Origin: an uncultured Clostridia bacterium
GTDB taxonomy: Bacteria > Bacillota > Clostridia > Christensenellales > UBA1750
NCBI GenBank assembly: GCA_904393115.1
Contig: CAJFMX010000011.1
Span: 1-64,000, forward strand
Length of the DNA: 64,000 nucleotides
Direction of reading: 5' to 3'
Shown: in pieces, positions 2 to 13,013 of the stretch
Numbering within the stretch: the first letter of the stretch is position 1
Layout: each line of letters begins with the position of its first letter
Program-made: the position numbers and the translations under genes
The notes under the pieces: generated by a model
Told to the model about the DNA's origin: nothing
Databases searched by the model: none
The model's input: only the letters and a program-made list of their open reading frames with translations

Positions 2-892
2 GAATATGAAGCTGACTATTGCAAAGTTTTGAAAGAAAACCGCCCGGAATGGAATGTCATTTGTGCCGATGTCCACGATTTTGATGGGCGTCCATATAGG
101 GGCGTAGATTTACTTGCTGGTGGCGTTCCTTGCCCGCCCTTTTCTGTTGCGGGCAAACAGCTTGGAAAAGATGATGAACGCGACTTGTTCCCGGAAGCGA
201 TCCGGCTTATTGGGGAAATTAAACCAAGAGCTGTCATGTTGGAAAATGTTCGTGGGTTCTTGGACCCTGGGTTTGATGAATACAGAGAGCATATCTTTTC
301 CGAAATCAAGAAACTTGGCTATGTCACTCACATTAAACTGCTCAACGCATCCAATTTTGGAGTTCCGCAGCTGCGGCCAAGAGTTGTGATTGTTGGAGTA
401 CGGAAAGATCAGCTCGGCGCGTTTGCTTATCCCGAAGAAAAGTCGGACAGTGCGCCTACTGTCGGGAAAGTGCTGTACGACTTGATGGCTGAGAATGGAT
501 GGGAAAAAGCCAAGGAATGGGCGGCTCATGCCGATCGGATTGCCCCCACCTTAGTCGGTGGCTCAAAAAAGCATGGCGGGCCTGATCTCGGCCCCACACG
601 AGCCAGGAACGCATGGGCCGAACTCGGAGTTGATGGACGGGGGATTGCCAACGAAGCTCCGTCTGCCGGATTTGAGGGAATGCCCCGTTTGACAAGCCGG
701 ATGATGGCCAGAATTCAGGGGTTTCCGGACACATGGACCTTTGGTAAACGAAAGACTTTGGCTTGCCGCATGATTGGCAACGCTTTTCCACCCCCGGTTG
801 CCCAAGCAGTAGGAGAAAAAATTAAGGAGTGTCTTGAGTATGGATGCGCTGATTGCAAACGCGAGATTCCACTTTCACAAGCAGTTATTTGA
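2..892 (+). CDS. DNA (cytosine-5) methyltransferase, 5' end outside window
   Basis: C5-cytosine DNA methyltransferase, expected to be the protective partner of the endonuclease that follows. The reading frame is open to the first base of the window, so the N-terminal SAM-binding part is missing; the TTG at 29 is only the first possible internal start. Visible family motifs in order are GGVPCPPFS (motif IV, catalytic Cys), MLENVRGF (motif VI), RPRVVIVG (motif VIII) and MIGNAFPPPVAQA (motif X). The end overlaps the next gene by about 50 bases in another frame, which indicates tight co-expression. The target is inferred to be GCCGGC from the neighbouring endonuclease. Base composition is AT-richer than the rest of the window, pointing to transfer. 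Confidence 0.95.
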   Translation, partial: EYEADYCKVLKENRPEWNVICADVHDFDGRPYRGVDLLAGGVPCPPFSVAGKQLGKDDERDLFPEAIRLIGEIKPRAVMLENVRGFLDPGFDEYREHIFSEIKKLGYVTHIKLLNASNFGVPQLRPRVVIVGVRKDQLGAFAYPEEKSDSAPTVGKVLYDLMAENGWEKAKEWAAHADRIAPTLVGGSKKHGGPDLGPTRARNAWAELGVDGRGIANEAPSAGFEGMPRLTSRMMARIQGFPDTWTFGKRKTLACRMIGNAFPPPVAQAVGEKIKECLEYGCADCKREIPLSQAVI

Positions 893-1715
893 AACAAATA
901 CGCTGACTTTAACTTCGGCCGGAGTGGCGTCCAACGCCGATACCAGTAGCCGCAGCTCCAAGGCAATAGCCCGCAGGATTGTTGATATTCTGGTAGATGA
1001 GCAGCATCATGCGGTTTCAATGGTTGATAAGATTTCCGGTCAGACGCTTGGTAAGCAATTTGAGACTTTGACTATGGATTTCTTGCGGGAAACTTTTCCA
1101 AATCTCCAAAACCTTCGCCCTGGGCGCTGGACAATCCTTCAACTCGGCAATAACAATAAGCTGAAAACCAGCGATTTTGCCCAGTATGAGCATCTGGCAT
1201 ACTTGAATGAGCTTACTGCGCAGAACGCTCAGTTGGCTGCTGCATTGGGAAACGATTACTTAGTTGCGCCGGATGTGGTCATCTACCGTGACCTATACGA
1301 AGATAGCGAAATCAATGCTGCCCAGTGTATCGTTGATGGCGATGTTAGCAAAATGGCGGATATTCGCAAGGCAAACGGCGGAAAACCGTTGCTTCACGCC
1401 AGCGTATCTGCCAAGTACACCATGCGGAGTGACCGGGCGCAAAATAGCCGGACTGAGGCTCTGAATTTAATTCGTAACAGGAAGGGACATCTGCCCCACA
1501 TTGTTGTAGTGACAGCGGAGCCGATGCCAAACCGGCTTGCCTCACTTGCTTTAGGAACGGGTGATATTGACTGCGTTTATCACTTTGCCCTTTATGAGCT
1601 GATTCGTGCTGTAAAAGAAGTAGGGTCCGAGGATGCAGCTGAAACTTTGGAAACGCTAGTTCAAGGGAAGCGGTTGAAAGATATTTCCGACCTTCCGCTG
1701 GATTTGGCTGTATAA
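840..1715 (+). CDS. NgoMIV-type type II restriction endonuclease (predicted GCCGGC)
   Basis: Type II restriction endonuclease of the NgoMIV/Cfr10I group, 291 aa (NgoMIV is 286). The active-site residues known for NgoMIV (E70, D140, S185, K187, E201) map at a constant +5 offset to E75, D145, S190, K192 and E206, and the base-reading RSDR segment after the S-x-K motif is present. The C-terminus GKRLKDISDLPLDLAV matches my recollection of NgoMIV. Cleavage at G/CCGGC is therefore predicted. ATG 840 was chosen over TTG 834 because AAGGAG at 824-829 lies 10 bases before ATG but only 4 before TTG. The gene overlaps the methyltransferase at its start, and its stop codon overlaps the vsr start (TAATG). 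Confidence 0.93.
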   Translation: MDALIANARFHFHKQLFETNTLTLTSAGVASNADTSSRSSKAIARRIVDILVDEQHHAVSMVDKISGQTLGKQFETLTMDFLRETFPNLQNLRPGRWTILQLGNNNKLKTSDFAQYEHLAYLNELTAQNAQLAAALGNDYLVAPDVVIYRDLYEDSEINAAQCIVDGDVSKMADIRKANGGKPLLHASVSAKYTMRSDRAQNSRTEALNLIRNRKGHLPHIVVVTAEPMPNRLASLALGTGDIDCVYHFALYELIRAVKEVGSEDAAETLETLVQGKRLKDISDLPLDLAV

Positions 1716-2131
1716 TGGCTGATACGATCTCTTCTGACCGGAGAAGTAAAATCATGTCCCACATAAAGAGCAAGGATACCAGCATTGAGATGATGGTACG
1801 CCGCCGCCTCTTTGCAATGGGATACCGGTACCGGGTCAATTATAAGGCGCTGCCGGGCAAGCCTGATATTGTCTTTACCAAGAAGAGAATAGCCATTTTC
1901 ATTCACGGATGCTACTGGCACGGGCATGACTGTGGAAGCCGGTACGCCCATACGAGTCAGTCAAACAAAACATATTGGGGACCTAAAATAGAGCGAACAA
2001 AGCAACGAGATCAGGAGCATATTCAAGAGCTGGAAGCCAATGGCTGGAAAGTGATTGTACTTTGGGAATGTGAGATTAAAAACCATTTAGAGTTAACAAT
2101 AGCTGATTTAATCGAAAAGATTGAAAATTAA
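1715..2131 (+). CDS. vsr: very short patch repair (Vsr) endonuclease
   Basis: DNA mismatch endonuclease that nicks 5' of the T in T:G mismatches left by deamination of 5-methylcytosine, here presumably protecting the methylated sites of the neighbouring system. At 138 aa it has normal family length. Residues fall at the same numbers as in E. coli Vsr: D51 (LPGKPDIVF), H64 and H69 (IHGCYWHGHDC), and zinc ligands H71 and C73, with a later Cys in LWECE. Its ATG overlaps the endonuclease stop, so the two are translationally coupled. A Vsr beside a C5 methyltransferase is a common arrangement and supports 5mC as the modification. Confidence 0.96.
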   Translation: MADTISSDRRSKIMSHIKSKDTSIEMMVRRRLFAMGYRYRVNYKALPGKPDIVFTKKRIAIFIHGCYWHGHDCGSRYAHTSQSNKTYWGPKIERTKQRDQEHIQELEANGWKVIVLWECEIKNHLELTIADLIEKIEN

Positions 2132-2239
2132 TAATAAATCTGTATAGAAATCTGCCTTTAGCAATAAGCTCTATATTCGTGTCCATAAGAATACCCCTTG
2201 TAGATAATGTGAGATTGGTTCCGAGGTGAAACTACGATA

Positions 2240-4453
2240 ATGATTACATCAATACTAATGAAAAATTGTGCTACATATCCGTCAACGGGGGTATCTATTG
2301 ACAATTGTCAAAAAGTTAATTTCTTCTATGGACCAAACGGAAGTGGTAAATCGACTATTAGTAATTTTTTGAACAACCAAAATGATCCTCAATATTCTTC
2401 TTGTACAGTGCAATGGGAAAACGGCTCTGTACTTGATATTGCGGTATATAATCGGGAGTTTCGCACGCGGCATTTTCAAGAAGATATTGATGGCGTTTTT
2501 ACTTTGGGCGAGGCTACCATTGAAGAAGTGAAAGCCCTTGAAGATTTAAAGCGAGATAGAGAGATAAAGAGTCAAGATTTGGCTGCTCGAAAAGCAGCGC
2601 TTGCTAAAAAAGTAGCGGAAGAGCAGGCGCACAAAGAAAATTTCCGCGATACTGTGTGGAATGTGATCCTTAAGCAGAATGAAACTGACTTTCAAGAAGT
2701 GTTTCGCGGCTTTAGAGGGAACAAAGAAAAGTTTATGAATGAGGTAATTAGGCGCTATAATATTTCTCATTCATCGTCTGAAACAAAAGATGATTTGCGA
2801 AAACGAGCAGCGACCCTTTTTGCAAAACGCCCAGAACGATGTGAATCTTTGTCCCCTCTGTCCGAGAAACTCTTGTCTATGATTGACGCTGTCGAAAATG
2901 ATCCGATTTGGGAAAAAGTAATCGTTGGAAACAAGGATATTCCTATTGCTAACCTTATAGAATTTCTTGGAAATGCAGACTGGGTGAATAAAGGCCGTTC
3001 ATACATTCGAGAAAATGGTGTATGCCCTTTTTGTCAGCAGAAAACAATTTCAGAAGATTTTAGGAAACAGATCGAATCTTTCTTCAGCGGTGAATATGAT
3101 GCTAATATCGAATATATAAGAAAACTAAAGGCAGTATATGAAGAAGCTTCTAAGCAATTGCTAGATTATCTTCAATGTGTAGTTTCAAATGCACTTGCTG
3201 TATCAGTCGGAAATATTGATGTTAAAAGATTTAGTTCTTTGAACGATATTTTACAATCAAAATTTGCAAGCACTCTGGCTTCAATGTCTTTCAAAGAGAA
3301 AGAAGCCGGCACGAAAATAACTATAGCTCGAAGTTCTAGCGAAATAACTGAAATATTATCCATTATTTCAACAGCAAACACGGAAATAGCAAAACATAAT
3401 CAAATGGTTGACCACATAAATGAAGAAAGGTTGGTATTGGTTGATGCTGTTTGGACATTTTTAATGGATGAACAAGAGGCGTTGATTGCTGGCTACTTAG
3501 GCGATATACCCAATTTCAATAAAGCCAAACAGGGAATGCAGAAAGGTATAGATATTTGCAAGCAACAGTTAGATGATCTAGACAACAAGATAATCGAGGC
3601 AGGAAAGAATATCACGAGTGTTCAACCAACTGTCGATGAAATTAATCGTTCCCTTAAGGCTTACGGTTTTACAAATTTTCGGATTGCACCCTCACCAAAT
3701 AAAGAGAATTGCTATCAAATCCAAAGACTAGACGGAACACTTGCAACAACCACGCTCAGTGAAGGAGAAGAAACATTTATAACATTTTTATATTTTCTTC
3801 AACTCGCCAAGGGTTCAGTTGAGGAATCCAAAGTATCAGCAAAGAAAGTTTTGGTTTTAGATGATCCAATTTGTAGTCTTGATAGTACAGTTCTTTACAT
3901 TGTAAGCTCAATGGTAAAATCTCTAATCAAGGAAATCCGAAATGGCATATCGGATGTAGAGCAAATATTTATTCTTACTCATAATGTGTTCTTTCACAAG
4001 GAAGCATCCTTTGTAGATGGACGAACAGCGGAACTCAATGATGTGAATTATTGGATAATAAGTAAAGATAATAACATATCATCTATACGAGCATTCGGAA
4101 AAATCAATCCGATTAAAACATCATACGAGCTTTTATGGCAAGAACTCAAAAACAATGAAAATGCTTCACTTGTAACTACGCAGAATATTATGAGGCGAAT
4201 CATTGAAAACTATTTTAGCATTCTAGGGAAAAATGTTGACGATGCCATTGTTGATTCATTCGATACACCAGAAGATAAAATGATTTGCCGCTCGCTTATA
4301 AGTTGGATAAACGATGGTTCACATTCAATACCGGATGACCTATATATTGACAGCTATACTGATTCTGTTGACCGGTATAAATGTATTTTTCGAGAAATTT
4401 TTATAAGGATGCACCACGAAGCTCATTATAAAATGATGATGGGAGAGCCTTAA
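2240..4453 (+). CDS. AAA_13-type ATPase, candidate RloC-like anticodon nuclease
   Basis: Large ABC/SMC-type ATPase of 737 aa. Seen: Walker A GPNGSGKST at 31-39, coiled-coil-like stretches, a CPFC pair at 262-265 resembling the zinc hook of RloC, an ABC signature LSEGEE near 506-511, Walker B VLVLDD ending at 542, and an H-loop LTHN at about 581. In the C-terminus R652-x3-E656 and H695 (NDGSHS) resemble the Arg-Glu-His triad of PrrC/RloC anticodon nucleases. Length, hook position and C-terminal triad fit RloC better than PrrC, which is about half the size. It starts 108 bases after vsr with its own GAGGTG ribosome site. If the call is right, it would cut tRNA when restriction is disabled. A plain AAA_13 ATPase remains possible. 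Confidence 0.7.
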   Translation: MITSILMKNCATYPSTGVSIDNCQKVNFFYGPNGSGKSTISNFLNNQNDPQYSSCTVQWENGSVLDIAVYNREFRTRHFQEDIDGVFTLGEATIEEVKALEDLKRDREIKSQDLAARKAALAKKVAEEQAHKENFRDTVWNVILKQNETDFQEVFRGFRGNKEKFMNEVIRRYNISHSSSETKDDLRKRAATLFAKRPERCESLSPLSEKLLSMIDAVENDPIWEKVIVGNKDIPIANLIEFLGNADWVNKGRSYIRENGVCPFCQQKTISEDFRKQIESFFSGEYDANIEYIRKLKAVYEEASKQLLDYLQCVVSNALAVSVGNIDVKRFSSLNDILQSKFASTLASMSFKEKEAGTKITIARSSSEITEILSIISTANTEIAKHNQMVDHINEERLVLVDAVWTFLMDEQEALIAGYLGDIPNFNKAKQGMQKGIDICKQQLDDLDNKIIEAGKNITSVQPTVDEINRSLKAYGFTNFRIAPSPNKENCYQIQRLDGTLATTTLSEGEETFITFLYFLQLAKGSVEESKVSAKKVLVLDDPICSLDSTVLYIVSSMVKSLIKEIRNGISDVEQIFILTHNVFFHKEASFVDGRTAELNDVNYWIISKDNNISSIRAFGKINPIKTSYELLWQELKNNENASLVTTQNIMRRIIENYFSILGKNVDDAIVDSFDTPEDKMICRSLISWINDGSHSIPDDLYIDSYTDSVDRYKCIFREIFIRMHHEAHYKMMMGEP

Positions 4454-9283: not shown

Positions 9284-10093
9284 TCAGGGCTCTGGGATTT
9301 CCTGGCCCGGCGCCCAGATCAGCTCGCTCTCATAGGCGTGGGAGAACCGGTAGCCGAGCTTTTCCGCAAGGCGCAGCGAGGGCAGGTTCGCCGCGTCCCA
9401 GCTCGGGTAGAGGCCGCGGCTGAGGCAGTCCAGGATCAGGCGCGCGGCGCAGGCGGCGGCCAGGCCCTGGCGCCGGCAGTCCGCGCGCGTGTCGATCTGG
9501 ATCTCGATGCCGCCGCGGTAGCGGCTGTAGCCCGAGGCGCCGGCGACGATCTCCTCCCCGCGCACGGCCACCACGCCCAGGCTCTGCGCGGCGTAGGCCT
9601 CGTAGGTCGGGTACATCGCGGTCATGTCGCGCGACCACTCCTGCGCGCGGGTGCGCGCGAACGCCTCCGGCCCCATGCGCCGCAGCGCCGTGTCCGCGGG
9701 CAGGCTTTCGGCCAGCGCGGCAAGGCGCGCGCGGTCAAAGGCCTGCGGGTCCTTTTTCGTGGCGTACCGCGCGACGCGGCGCCACCTGCCGGGATGGACC
9801 CGGCGCACGAGCGCGGCCCAGCGCTCGTCCTGGGGCACGGCGAGCAAGTAGGGATGCGCCGCGCCCGCGAGCAGGCCGCGCGCCAGGGCCTCCGCCGCGG
9901 GGTCCTGCGCGTCCCCGGCCAGGAAGGCGAAATCCCCGAGGCGCGCCACGGCCGCGCGCACCGGCGCCACGCACCCCGCGAGGACCTCGCCCATGCTGCC
10001 ATCCAGGCAGCTCTCGATCAGCGTCTCCTCCCACGCGCCGAACAGCGGCCGCGCCGCCGCGCGCTGGGATTCGCCCTGCAAAACCATCGTCAT
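9284..10093 (-). CDS. GNAT family N-acetyltransferase
   Basis: About 269 aa. The C-terminal third holds the acetyl-CoA binding segment (DTRADCRRQGLAAACAARL) and the ASN-type end WDAANLPSLRLAEKLGYRF; the N-terminal two thirds are less conserved. The layout resembles the larger GNAT proteins related to ZmaR (Pfam GNAT_acetyltran). Three nearby ATGs exist; GGAGG at 10103-10107 abuts the one at 10102, so the ATG at 10093, nine bases from it, is chosen. The gene stands alone between the ThuA operon and the terminator of pyk. The acceptor substrate is unknown. Confidence 0.8.
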   Translation of the reverse strand: MTMVLQGESQRAAARPLFGAWEETLIESCLDGSMGEVLAGCVAPVRAAVARLGDFAFLAGDAQDPAAEALARGLLAGAAHPYLLAVPQDERWAALVRRVHPGRWRRVARYATKKDPQAFDRARLAALAESLPADTALRRMGPEAFARTRAQEWSRDMTAMYPTYEAYAAQSLGVVAVRGEEIVAGASGYSRYRGGIEIQIDTRADCRRQGLAAACAARLILDCLSRGLYPSWDAANLPSLRLAEKLGYRFSHAYESELIWAPGQEIPEP

Positions 10094-10146
10094 TCGTTCC
10101 ATCCTCCCCGTTTTTACACCATTATAGCAGTTTTCGCGCGGAAGTG

Positions 10147-10188
10147 CAAAAAAAGAAGGGCTTCGCAGCGCTTTGCGAAGCCCTTCTT
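10147..10188 (-). terminator. original pyk terminator, now separated from pyk
   Basis: Arms AAGAAGGGCTTCGC (10153-10166) and GCGAAGCCCTTCTT (10175-10188), followed on the minus strand by T residues. It follows the left copy of the pyk 3' repeat by 10 bases, so it probably served pyk before the insertion at 10199-11580. Confidence 0.85.
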
Positions 10189-10198
10189 GCCGAAGCGG

Positions 10199-10224
10199 GC
10201 GCGTCAGTCCTTGCCCACGATGGC
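10199..10224. repeat. left 26-bp direct repeat (pyk 3' end duplicate)
   Basis: Identical over 26 bases to 11581-11606. Read on the minus strand it encodes AIVGKD and the stop, the same end as pyruvate kinase. Flanking bases differ on both sides. Confidence 0.9.
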
Positions 10225-10267
10225 GAACACCTTTGCGGAAGTCTTTCTGGTTGAAATATACGCGAGT

Positions 10268-10289
10268 CCCCCGACCTTTCGATCGGGGG
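10268..10289 (-). terminator. stem-loop after the cargo gene
   Basis: Arms CCCCCGA (10268-10274) and TCGGGGG (10283-10289), 11 bases past the cargo gene stop. The T-run that follows on the minus strand is weak, so termination efficiency is uncertain. Confidence 0.45.
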
Positions 10290-10299
10290 AAAACTGTAT

Positions 10300-11280
10300 T
10301 CACTTTTTACTTTCCTTAGCTTTTCTGCGTTCCTCTTTTGCGCGCGCCTTGTGTATTTTATCGATATAAAATTGAATCCTTTCTGGAGAATCAGGTTTTT
10401 TGATTCTCTGAATTGCATTCATTGCATCCTCGAACCTATTTGCTTCTAAATAAAGATTGGCTAATTTGTAATACTCGTTTGTTTTCAACCCATATGTTTT
10501 CTCCCTATTTTCCCAAAACAATATAAAGGATAGCATATCTCCTGTTTCATTGTAACGCTGAGTAGCATACTCTTCTTCCTTGAATTTCTCTTCCAACCTG
10601 CGCATCTCTGAGGTCCATTCTGGATGTCGCTTCTCTTCTTCACGCAAAAGTTGTTCGCGTTTATGCGAATTTTCGGAACGTGCGCTTTCAATCTGTCTGC
10701 GTATATCCGCAACGATTGATTCCCAATCATTCGTATGCTCGTCATGCAAGCGGCGATTCACAACCCAAACATTAAATTCTGGGCCAAATTTTCCGTTTAT
10801 AGTGGTATCTTTGGCCTTGTGCATATACGGAACATAAATGTTTTCCGCGAGCTCTTTTTCGCCCAATGCAGTAAGTTTGTACTTGCCTTTTTGTGAATCC
10901 ATAATGATAAAACCACGAGATTCAAGTGTAGACAGACGGTAGCCAACATTTCGGATACCATACGAAAACCACCAAAATCCAGGATACCCGCTTTTGGGAT
11001 TTGGATAGGATCCCAAAGAACAGTAGTACAGCAGAAGAATTTCAGAAACATACAATCCTCTGCTTGAAGGGAAAGAAATTTTTTTCAAATCCTCAAAAGT
11101 TAAAACCCTTTGTTCAAACTGTGTCCCTGGATGGACGACATTTGCATAGTATTCCGCTGGCCTGTAAAAATGCATTTCGCTTTCGGGTATAGGCGGTTCG
11201 GTAAGGGCGTCAGGTGGCTTTATATAGCTCGTTGCATTGGCTTTATTTCTCTTCTTCAGAATGGAATCAAACCATTTCAT
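10300..11280 (-). CDS. hypothetical cargo protein of the pyk insertion
   Basis: 326-aa protein of unknown function. Three parts can be seen: an N-terminal tail; a central segment (about 65-150) with GLYVSEILLLYY, YPGFWWFSYGIRNVG and a winged-helix-like stretch ending KYKLTALGEKEL; and a charged helical C-terminus with a TPR-like YKLANLYLEANRFEDAMNAI, ending in lysine-rich KAKESKK. Similar central segments occur in uncharacterised Firmicute accessory proteins, sometimes labelled SAP-domain. ATG 11280 is chosen because AAGGAGG sits 8 bases upstream; the GTG/ATG further up has no such site. Codon and base usage is clearly AT-richer than the flanking genes. Confidence 0.85.
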   Translation of the reverse strand: MKWFDSILKKRNKANATSYIKPPDALTEPPIPESEMHFYRPAEYYANVVHPGTQFEQRVLTFEDLKKISFPSSRGLYVSEILLLYYCSLGSYPNPKSGYPGFWWFSYGIRNVGYRLSTLESRGFIIMDSQKGKYKLTALGEKELAENIYVPYMHKAKDTTINGKFGPEFNVWVVNRRLHDEHTNDWESIVADIRRQIESARSENSHKREQLLREEEKRHPEWTSEMRRLEEKFKEEEYATQRYNETGDMLSFILFWENREKTYGLKTNEYYKLANLYLEANRFEDAMNAIQRIKKPDSPERIQFYIDKIHKARAKEERRKAKESKK

Positions 11281-11338
11281 ATAGCTACCCTCCTTTTTTA
11301 GGAGCATTCTAACACGTCACAAAGCAAATTGGATCTTT

Positions 11339-11524
11339 TTACACCAGTTTGGGGGAAATCCACTTCCCTATCTTCATGTCCCTTGCAAGGGGCGCGAAGA
11401 AGAGGTTGCTGTCCTCGTCAACGTCCAGCCCGGTGCCCTCTATGTCGAACGCAATACTCCCAGCTCAGAGTGTCTTGGAGATGCACCTTCCCGATTCGCG
11501 AGTTTCCTCGGAGATTGCAAACAT
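11339..11524 (-). pseudogene. short decayed gene with an in-frame TGA
   Basis: ATG 11524 has AAGGAG 7 bases upstream and starts a 62-codon frame that is interrupted by TGA at 11465-11467. The first part reads MFAISEETRESGR and ends KTL; the second contains FDIEGTGLDVDEDSNLFF and ends WISPKLV. Both halves look protein-like, and the break lies in the same frame, so this is most simply a mutated small gene within the insertion. Alternatively the first 19 codons are a short peptide. No family recognised. Confidence 0.4.
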
Positions 11525-11580
11525 CCTTATTCTCCTTCTCCATCGGACGCATGCGGATGCCCTTCCGCAAAAGACCGGAA

Positions 11581-11606
11581 GCGCGTCAGTCCTTGCCCAC
11601 GATGGC
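11581..11606. repeat. right 26-bp direct repeat at the pyk 3' end
   Basis: The copy that forms the actual end of the pyk coding sequence. Identical to 10199-10224. Confidence 0.9.
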
Positions 11607-13013
11607 CACGCGCATCAGGTTCGTCGAACCCGTGGTGTTGAGCGGGATGCCCGCGGCGATGACGACGGTGTCGCCGTTGACCACCGCGTCGATCTGCTTG
11701 GCGCAGTCGATGGCGTGCAGCAGCAGCTCGTCGCTGGAGCGCTGCATCCGCGCCAGCACCGGGAACACGCCCCAGGACAGGGCGAGCTGGTGCATGGTCT
11801 TCTCCACAGGGGTTGCGGCGACGATGATCTGCCGGGGGTGGAACTTGGACATGCGCTGGGCGGTCTGGCCGGACTTGGTCACCACGATGATGGCCTTTGC
11901 GCGCAGGTCGTTTGCGGTGGTGCAGGTCGCGTCGCAGACGGCGTTTGTGGTGTCCTCGTTGTCGATGTCGTACTTGATGCCGGCGTAGACGTCCATGTCA
12001 AAGGCGTCCTCCTCGGCCTGGGTGACGATGCGGCTCATGACCTTGACCGCGAGCGCCGGATACTTGCCCATGGCCGTCTCCCCGGAGAGCATGACCGCGG
12101 AGGTGCCGTCAAAGACGGCGTTGGCCACGTCCGTGATCTCGGCGCGGGTGGGGTTGGCGTGCGCGATCATGGATTCGAGCATCTGCGTTGCGGTGATGAC
12201 GATCTTGCCCGCCTGGTAGCACTTCTTGATGAAGCGCTTCTGCAGGCCGGGCAGACGCTCAAAGGAGAGCTCGACGCCCATGTCCCCGCGGGCGACCATG
12301 ATGCCGTCGGAATAGGCCAGGATCTCGTCGAAGTTGTTGACGCCCTCGATGTTTTCAATCTTGGAGATGATGCGCAGGTTCCGCGCGCCGTGGTAGTCCA
12401 CGAACTTGCGCAGGGCGATGACGTCCTCCTTACAGCGGACGAAGGAGGCGGCGACAAAGTCCACGTCGTTCTCGATGCCAAAGAGGATGTCCGCCTTGTC
12501 CTGGTCGCTCAGGAACGGCAGCTCCAGGTGGACGTTGGGGACGTTGATGCCCTTGTGGTTGCTGATGCGGCCGCCGTGGATCACGCGACAGATCACGTCC
12601 GTCTCCGTGCAGGATTCGACGTTGAGCTCGATGTTGCCGTCGTCGATCAGGATGCTGTTGCCGGGCTGCAGCTCCCGCGGCATGCCCGCGTAGGTGACGG
12701 TCACGGCGTTTTCGTCGCCCTCGATCTCCCGCGTGGTCAGGGCGAAGGCCGCGCCCTCCTCCAGGAAGGCCTCGCCGTTCTTGAAGTCCTTGACGCGGAT
12801 CTCGGGGCCGCGCGTGTCCAGCAGGATCGCCAGGGGCACGTTCTCCTCCTGCCGAACGCGCTTGAGGCGGTCCATCGTCTCCTTATGGTAGGCATGCGTG
12901 CCGTGGGAGAAGTTCAGCCGCGCCACGTTCATGCCGCTGTGGACCAGTTTTTTCAGCATTTCCTCGCTGTTGCTCGCCGGGCCGATGGTGCATACAATCT
13001 TGGTCCTACGCAT
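11586..13013 (-). CDS. pyk: pyruvate kinase
   Basis: Final enzyme of glycolysis: phosphoenolpyruvate + ADP to pyruvate + ATP. 475 aa, the length of the short bacterial form without the extra C-terminal PEP-utiliser domain found in Bacillus. Visible motifs are the N-terminal TKIVCTIGPAS, NFSHGTH, LLDTRGPEIR, active-site IISKIENIEGV with catalytic Lys, VARGDMGVEL, and MLESMIAHANPTRAE. The last codons are duplicated at 10199-10224 by an insertion that separated the gene from its terminator. Its own promoter lies at 13205-13234, leaving a leader of about 185 bases. Confidence 0.98.
   Translation of the reverse strand: MRRTKIVCTIGPASNSEEMLKKLVHSGMNVARLNFSHGTHAYHKETMDRLKRVRQEENVPLAILLDTRGPEIRVKDFKNGEAFLEEGAAFALTTREIEGDENAVTVTYAGMPRELQPGNSILIDDGNIELNVESCTETDVICRVIHGGRISNHKGINVPNVHLELPFLSDQDKADILFGIENDVDFVAASFVRCKEDVIALRKFVDYHGARNLRIISKIENIEGVNNFDEILAYSDGIMVARGDMGVELSFERLPGLQKRFIKKCYQAGKIVITATQMLESMIAHANPTRAEITDVANAVFDGTSAVMLSGETAMGKYPALAVKVMSRIVTQAEEDAFDMDVYAGIKYDIDNEDTTNAVCDATCTTANDLRAKAIIVVTKSGQTAQRMSKFHPRQIIVAATPVEKTMHQLALSWGVFPVLARMQRSSDELLLHAIDCAKQIDAVVNGDTVVIAAGIPLNTTGSTNLMRVAIVGKD

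Follow-up and report, generated by a model that had tools for sequence, protein, structure and literature searches.

Cis-mobilizable elements (CIMEs) are decayed ICEs or IMEs that retain attL and attR, and gene-3'-end integration with both attachment sites kept has been described for them (PMC5704250). A locus of comparable layout lies at the 3' end of the pyruvate kinase gene, pyk, in a 64,000-nucleotide stretch of an uncultured Clostridia bacterium, referred to here as the window (GenBank assembly GCA_904393115.1, contig CAJFMX010000011.1, positions 1 to 64,000 of the forward strand). Like a CIME, the unit is without integration and transfer genes, lies between att-like direct repeats at the 3' end of a gene, and leaves that gene end preserved; unlike one, it spans only 1.4 kb and is not in tandem with an ICE, and its cargo is more suggestive of descent from a prophage than from an ICE or IME. 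It also resembles a decayed tyrosine-integrase prophage at the 3' end of a protein gene, with which it shares direct-repeat att sites, a restored gene end and a gene of a lysogeny-module family, although the window unit retains neither an integrase nor a structural gene. A third comparison is Streptococcus phage Javan617, in which a SAP-domain protein related to the window cargo is encoded between a Cro/CI regulator, of the CI repressor type, and an integrase. In contrast to the Javan617 protein, the window protein has no SAP domain, and the link between the two runs via a relative at another locus (L004) rather than directly. The locus is a new instance of a relic type that is already known, in an unusual spot. 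To our knowledge, pyk is not a familiar attachment gene, and a literature query on pyk in this role returned nothing.

The unit is bracketed by two copies of an exact 26-mer, GCGCGTCAGTCCTTGCCCACGATGGC, at 10199-10224 and 11581-11606. Read on the pyk strand (the minus strand), this sequence is GCCATCGTGGGCAAGGACTGACGCGC, which comprises the final pyk codons, the stop codon and 5 bases past the stop. The pair is the longest of all exact direct repeats in the window, the runners-up being 20-mers, and about 4e-6 pairs of at least 26 bases would be expected there by chance. The pyk-side copy (11581..11606, minus strand), which contains the pyk stop codon, is the proposed attL, and the terminator-side copy (10199..10224, minus strand) is the proposed attR. 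Between them lie 1,356 bp with a GC content of 43%, against 64.8% for the window, and the cargo gene within is at 40%. The first-pass annotation had described identical 26-base copies of the pyk end around an AT-rich segment, and both the exact repeat and the low GC content confirm this; the segment is not mere filler, however, as one intact gene and one broken gene lie inside it.

The copy pair with its inner segment occurs once in the genome of this bacterium, and a whole-genome scan found no second copy of the core elsewhere. The genome is a draft of 62 contigs, in which an assembly artefact or chimeric join could produce such an arrangement, yet both junctions fall within one contig, the inner sequence has no other occurrence in the genome, and a 26-bp repeat is shorter than the k-mers usually used in assembly, so that we give this explanation next to no credence.

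The pyk gene itself (11586..13013, minus strand) encodes a protein of 475 amino acids, and its 3' end is whole through the repeat copy. Its C-terminus, LMRVAIVGKD followed by the stop, agrees with those of two congeners, whose pyk is 81-83% identical overall, and the pyk-side copy is the genuine end of the gene. A strong rho-independent terminator with a 15-bp stem and a T tail, probably the original pyk terminator, is located beyond the other copy (10153..10188, minus strand), and this stretch folds at -31 kcal/mol (z -4.2). It lies 16 bp from the far copy and 1,398 bp from the present pyk stop, which bears out the earlier suggestion that the terminator was left stranded past the left copy. 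A search for further terminator-like sites within 10080-11660 found none. Because several relatives have a hairpin shortly 3' of the pyk stop, a terminator 16 bp past the stop, as in the rejoined site, is the expected layout. A single Rfam match to the terminator hairpin was weak and below the gathering threshold, and was rejected.

Just inside the two copies lies a pair of inverted 10-mers. On the terminator side, CTTCCGCAAA (10232..10241, minus strand) is 7 nt inward of the copy, and on the pyk side TTTGCGGAAG, in the pyk-direction reading (11562..11571, minus strand), is 9 nt inward. In a rejoined circle, CTTCCGCAAA stands 7 nt to one side of the core and its inverse 9 nt to the other, a near-symmetric arrangement that was equalled by 8 of 20,000 shuffles. 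As the inverted repeat was spotted after the fact, it is supportive only, and a scan of the same genome for the arm pattern gave matches at chance level. A circular form would read ...CTTCCGCAAAGGTGTTC-core-TTCCGGTCTTTTGCGG... across its junction. Inverted 10-mers near both ends could also be read as the subterminal inverted repeats of a transposon-like unit, with the 26-bp copies as its target duplication. Such a transposition, or another event of this kind, is very improbable, given that the site falls exactly on a gene end, which is restored, that there is no transposase, and that 26 bp exceeds the usual transposon target duplications, which are shorter.

Within the unit, the one intact gene (10300..11280, minus strand) encodes a cargo protein of about 326 amino acids from a homology-supported start with a ribosome binding site, or 335 from an upstream ATG. 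A Shine-Dalgarno sequence precedes the start at 11280, which coincides in alignment with the starts of relatives. A small broken reading frame (11337..11518, minus strand) has a ribosome binding site, an ATG and an in-frame TGA, and reads MFAISEETRESGRCISKTL, a stop, AGSIAFDIEGTGLDVDEDSNLFFAPLARDMKIGKWISPKLV and a second stop; the search for its relatives gave nothing convincing, the only matches being weak ones inside very long proteins. Open reading frames and Pfam searches, which recovered this one intact and one broken frame, revealed no recombinase or transfer gene, in agreement with the first-pass annotation as far as the unit itself is concerned. Likewise, no hallmark phage gene and no conjugation or mobilisation gene was recognised between the copies.

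Searches of the cargo protein against PHROGs, NCBIfam, PADLOC and Pfam gave nothing convincing beyond weak TPR-like signals. A match to AbiA (E 0.004 over 79 residues) was weak and is not counted as evidence. The structure of the protein was modelled with moderate confidence (mean pLDDT 69.8). A fold search with this model returned no match at E <= 0.001, and only weak matches came from the C-terminus, which in the model is TPR-like. The secondary structure of the model additionally suggests a possible winged-helix region.

Relatives of the cargo protein are found in genomes of the same order and class, and also in viral contigs. The window protein shares about 40% identity with the four relatives in the alignment, and the SAP domain, present in four of the five aligned family members, is missing from the window protein by one clean gap. 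Searched against phage and plasmid records, the window protein had no match, while the L004 relative as query had two phage matches. At L004, the relative lies 3' of a CI-like repressor and 5' of a tyrosine integrase; at L078, it follows an XRE regulator with a tyrosine integrase nearby; and in G567, where it forms part of a phage early region, a repressor adjoins it. Other contexts include a phage tail module (G254) and the vicinity of serine recombinases (L077), while the L003 and G426 relatives lie outside any visible prophage, and no convincing direct repeats were found flanking that of L003. In these gene neighbourhoods, the family, usually with a SAP domain, recurs several times in prophage lysogeny modules beside integrases or CI-type repressors. 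This cargo family, often bearing a SAP domain and near an integrase or CI repressor, is the more interesting lead from the locus.

The best explanation is that the unit is a decayed integrase-bearing element, most likely a prophage or a relative of one, that has kept both att sites and one gene, a reading to which we assign a probability of roughly 0.72. According to this reading, an element with an integrase, most probably a temperate phage or an element related to one, would have recombined its attP with the terminal 26 bp that include the pyk stop. A matching copy of this end, supplied by the element, would have left pyk whole and displaced the terminator to the far side, and later deletions would have taken the integrase and nearly everything else. 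The survivors would be both att sites, one intact accessory gene of a lysogeny-module family and one broken small gene, and the empty site would read as the pyk end, one core, then CCGCTTCGGCAAGAAGGGC.... The site-specific integration at the pyk 3' end that had been proposed earlier is well supported by the length and place of the repeat, the GC content, the terminator, the 10-mers and the prophage-type cargo. We infer the integration event and the prophage origin from these features; the latter rests on one gene, because the broken frame could not be assigned to a family. Read-through transcription from pyk may extend into the accessory gene, since the two have the same orientation and no terminator was found between them. 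The locus offers a clean case of gene-end integration at pyk with element decay down to att sites plus one gene, and, should the cargo be expressed through read-through, would also illustrate how a prophage-type gene becomes resident in a host transcription unit.

By the published definition, the unit is CIME-like in structure, with attL and attR present as direct repeats and the integration and transfer genes lost (PMC5704250). It is not filed as a CIME; no ICE or IME gene was recognised in it. Descent of the unit from an ICE, an IME or another integrative element that is not a phage, instead of from a prophage, is improbable: decay of this form at gene 3' ends is described for such elements and one cargo relative (L077) stands beside serine recombinases, but the unit holds no conjugation or mobilisation genes and, where the context of a cargo relative could be identified, it is mostly phage-like.

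The first-pass annotation had left the choice between a remnant and a unit mobilised in trans; the remnant fits best. If mobilised in trans, the unit would be functional, minimal and non-autonomous, with the accessory gene as its cargo, and would depend for its movement on an integrase encoded elsewhere in the cell or on an incoming element. Both ends look intact, with their symmetric inverted 10-mers, the cargo gene is intact, and the genome encodes a single tyrosine integrase of the phage/ICE type, which has an arm-binding domain, and two serine recombinases, in addition to an Xer-like recombinase near lexA. Nevertheless, we regard this explanation as unlikely, given that the unit is single-copy with no second core, that the broken frame inside suggests decay, and that no similar unit was found in other genomes. 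Trans-mobilisation is possible but unsupported, because around the resident integrase there is no att-like match above short, chance-level ones. More doubtful than either a non-phage remnant or simple mobilisation in trans is a minimal cassette of two att sites and a lysogeny-module gene that moves in trans and lodges between a highly expressed housekeeping gene and the terminator of that gene, for read-through expression. On contig C36 of the same genome, the Tn916/ICE-like integrase with an arm-binding domain (L072 2102-3620) is followed by a frame resembling a MobC-type mobilisation protein; no further element genes were recognised around it, and it is possibly another remnant. On C61, a contig of 3.6 kb, a serine recombinase continues within a single frame of 747 aa into a SpoVT C-terminal domain (L073 597-2840), which is either an unusual fusion or a join made in assembly.

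Against the decayed-prophage reading stand several negative results. At 29 pyk loci of the order, a scan for integrase motifs in the flanks gave no signature, and none of these loci was seen to carry an intact element. Viral contigs bearing pyk, sought as phages at this site, were not found either, and exact scans of viral contigs for the core and both inner ends were negative. A pyk match was present in two of four congeners; both are without the segment, but the sequence downstream of pyk differs too. In one of these, pyk is followed by a terminator and, further on, by an ABC transporter gene. In the other, G001, pyk is followed by a small acetyltransferase gene and then a PF12746 acetyltransferase gene, and the same PF12746 gene stands beyond the segment in the window. 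As the PF12746 gene is near pyk in both the window and G001, the two genes are near neighbours with a variable interval. In this G001 interval (L007 2929-3692), the small gene encodes 156 amino acids, and past it the 3' part of the gene recurs in a second copy that is partial and degenerate; the G001 interval varies by another route than that in the window.

Elsewhere in the window, positions 29-4453 hold a compact defence cluster. It comprises a C5 cytosine methylase (29-892), which may be truncated by the window start, together with an NgoMIV-type restriction enzyme (834-1715) and a Vsr nicking endonuclease (1715-2131). A 737-aa AAA_13 protein, assigned to the PADLOC candidate class PDC-S06 and weakly similar to PrrC, completes it.
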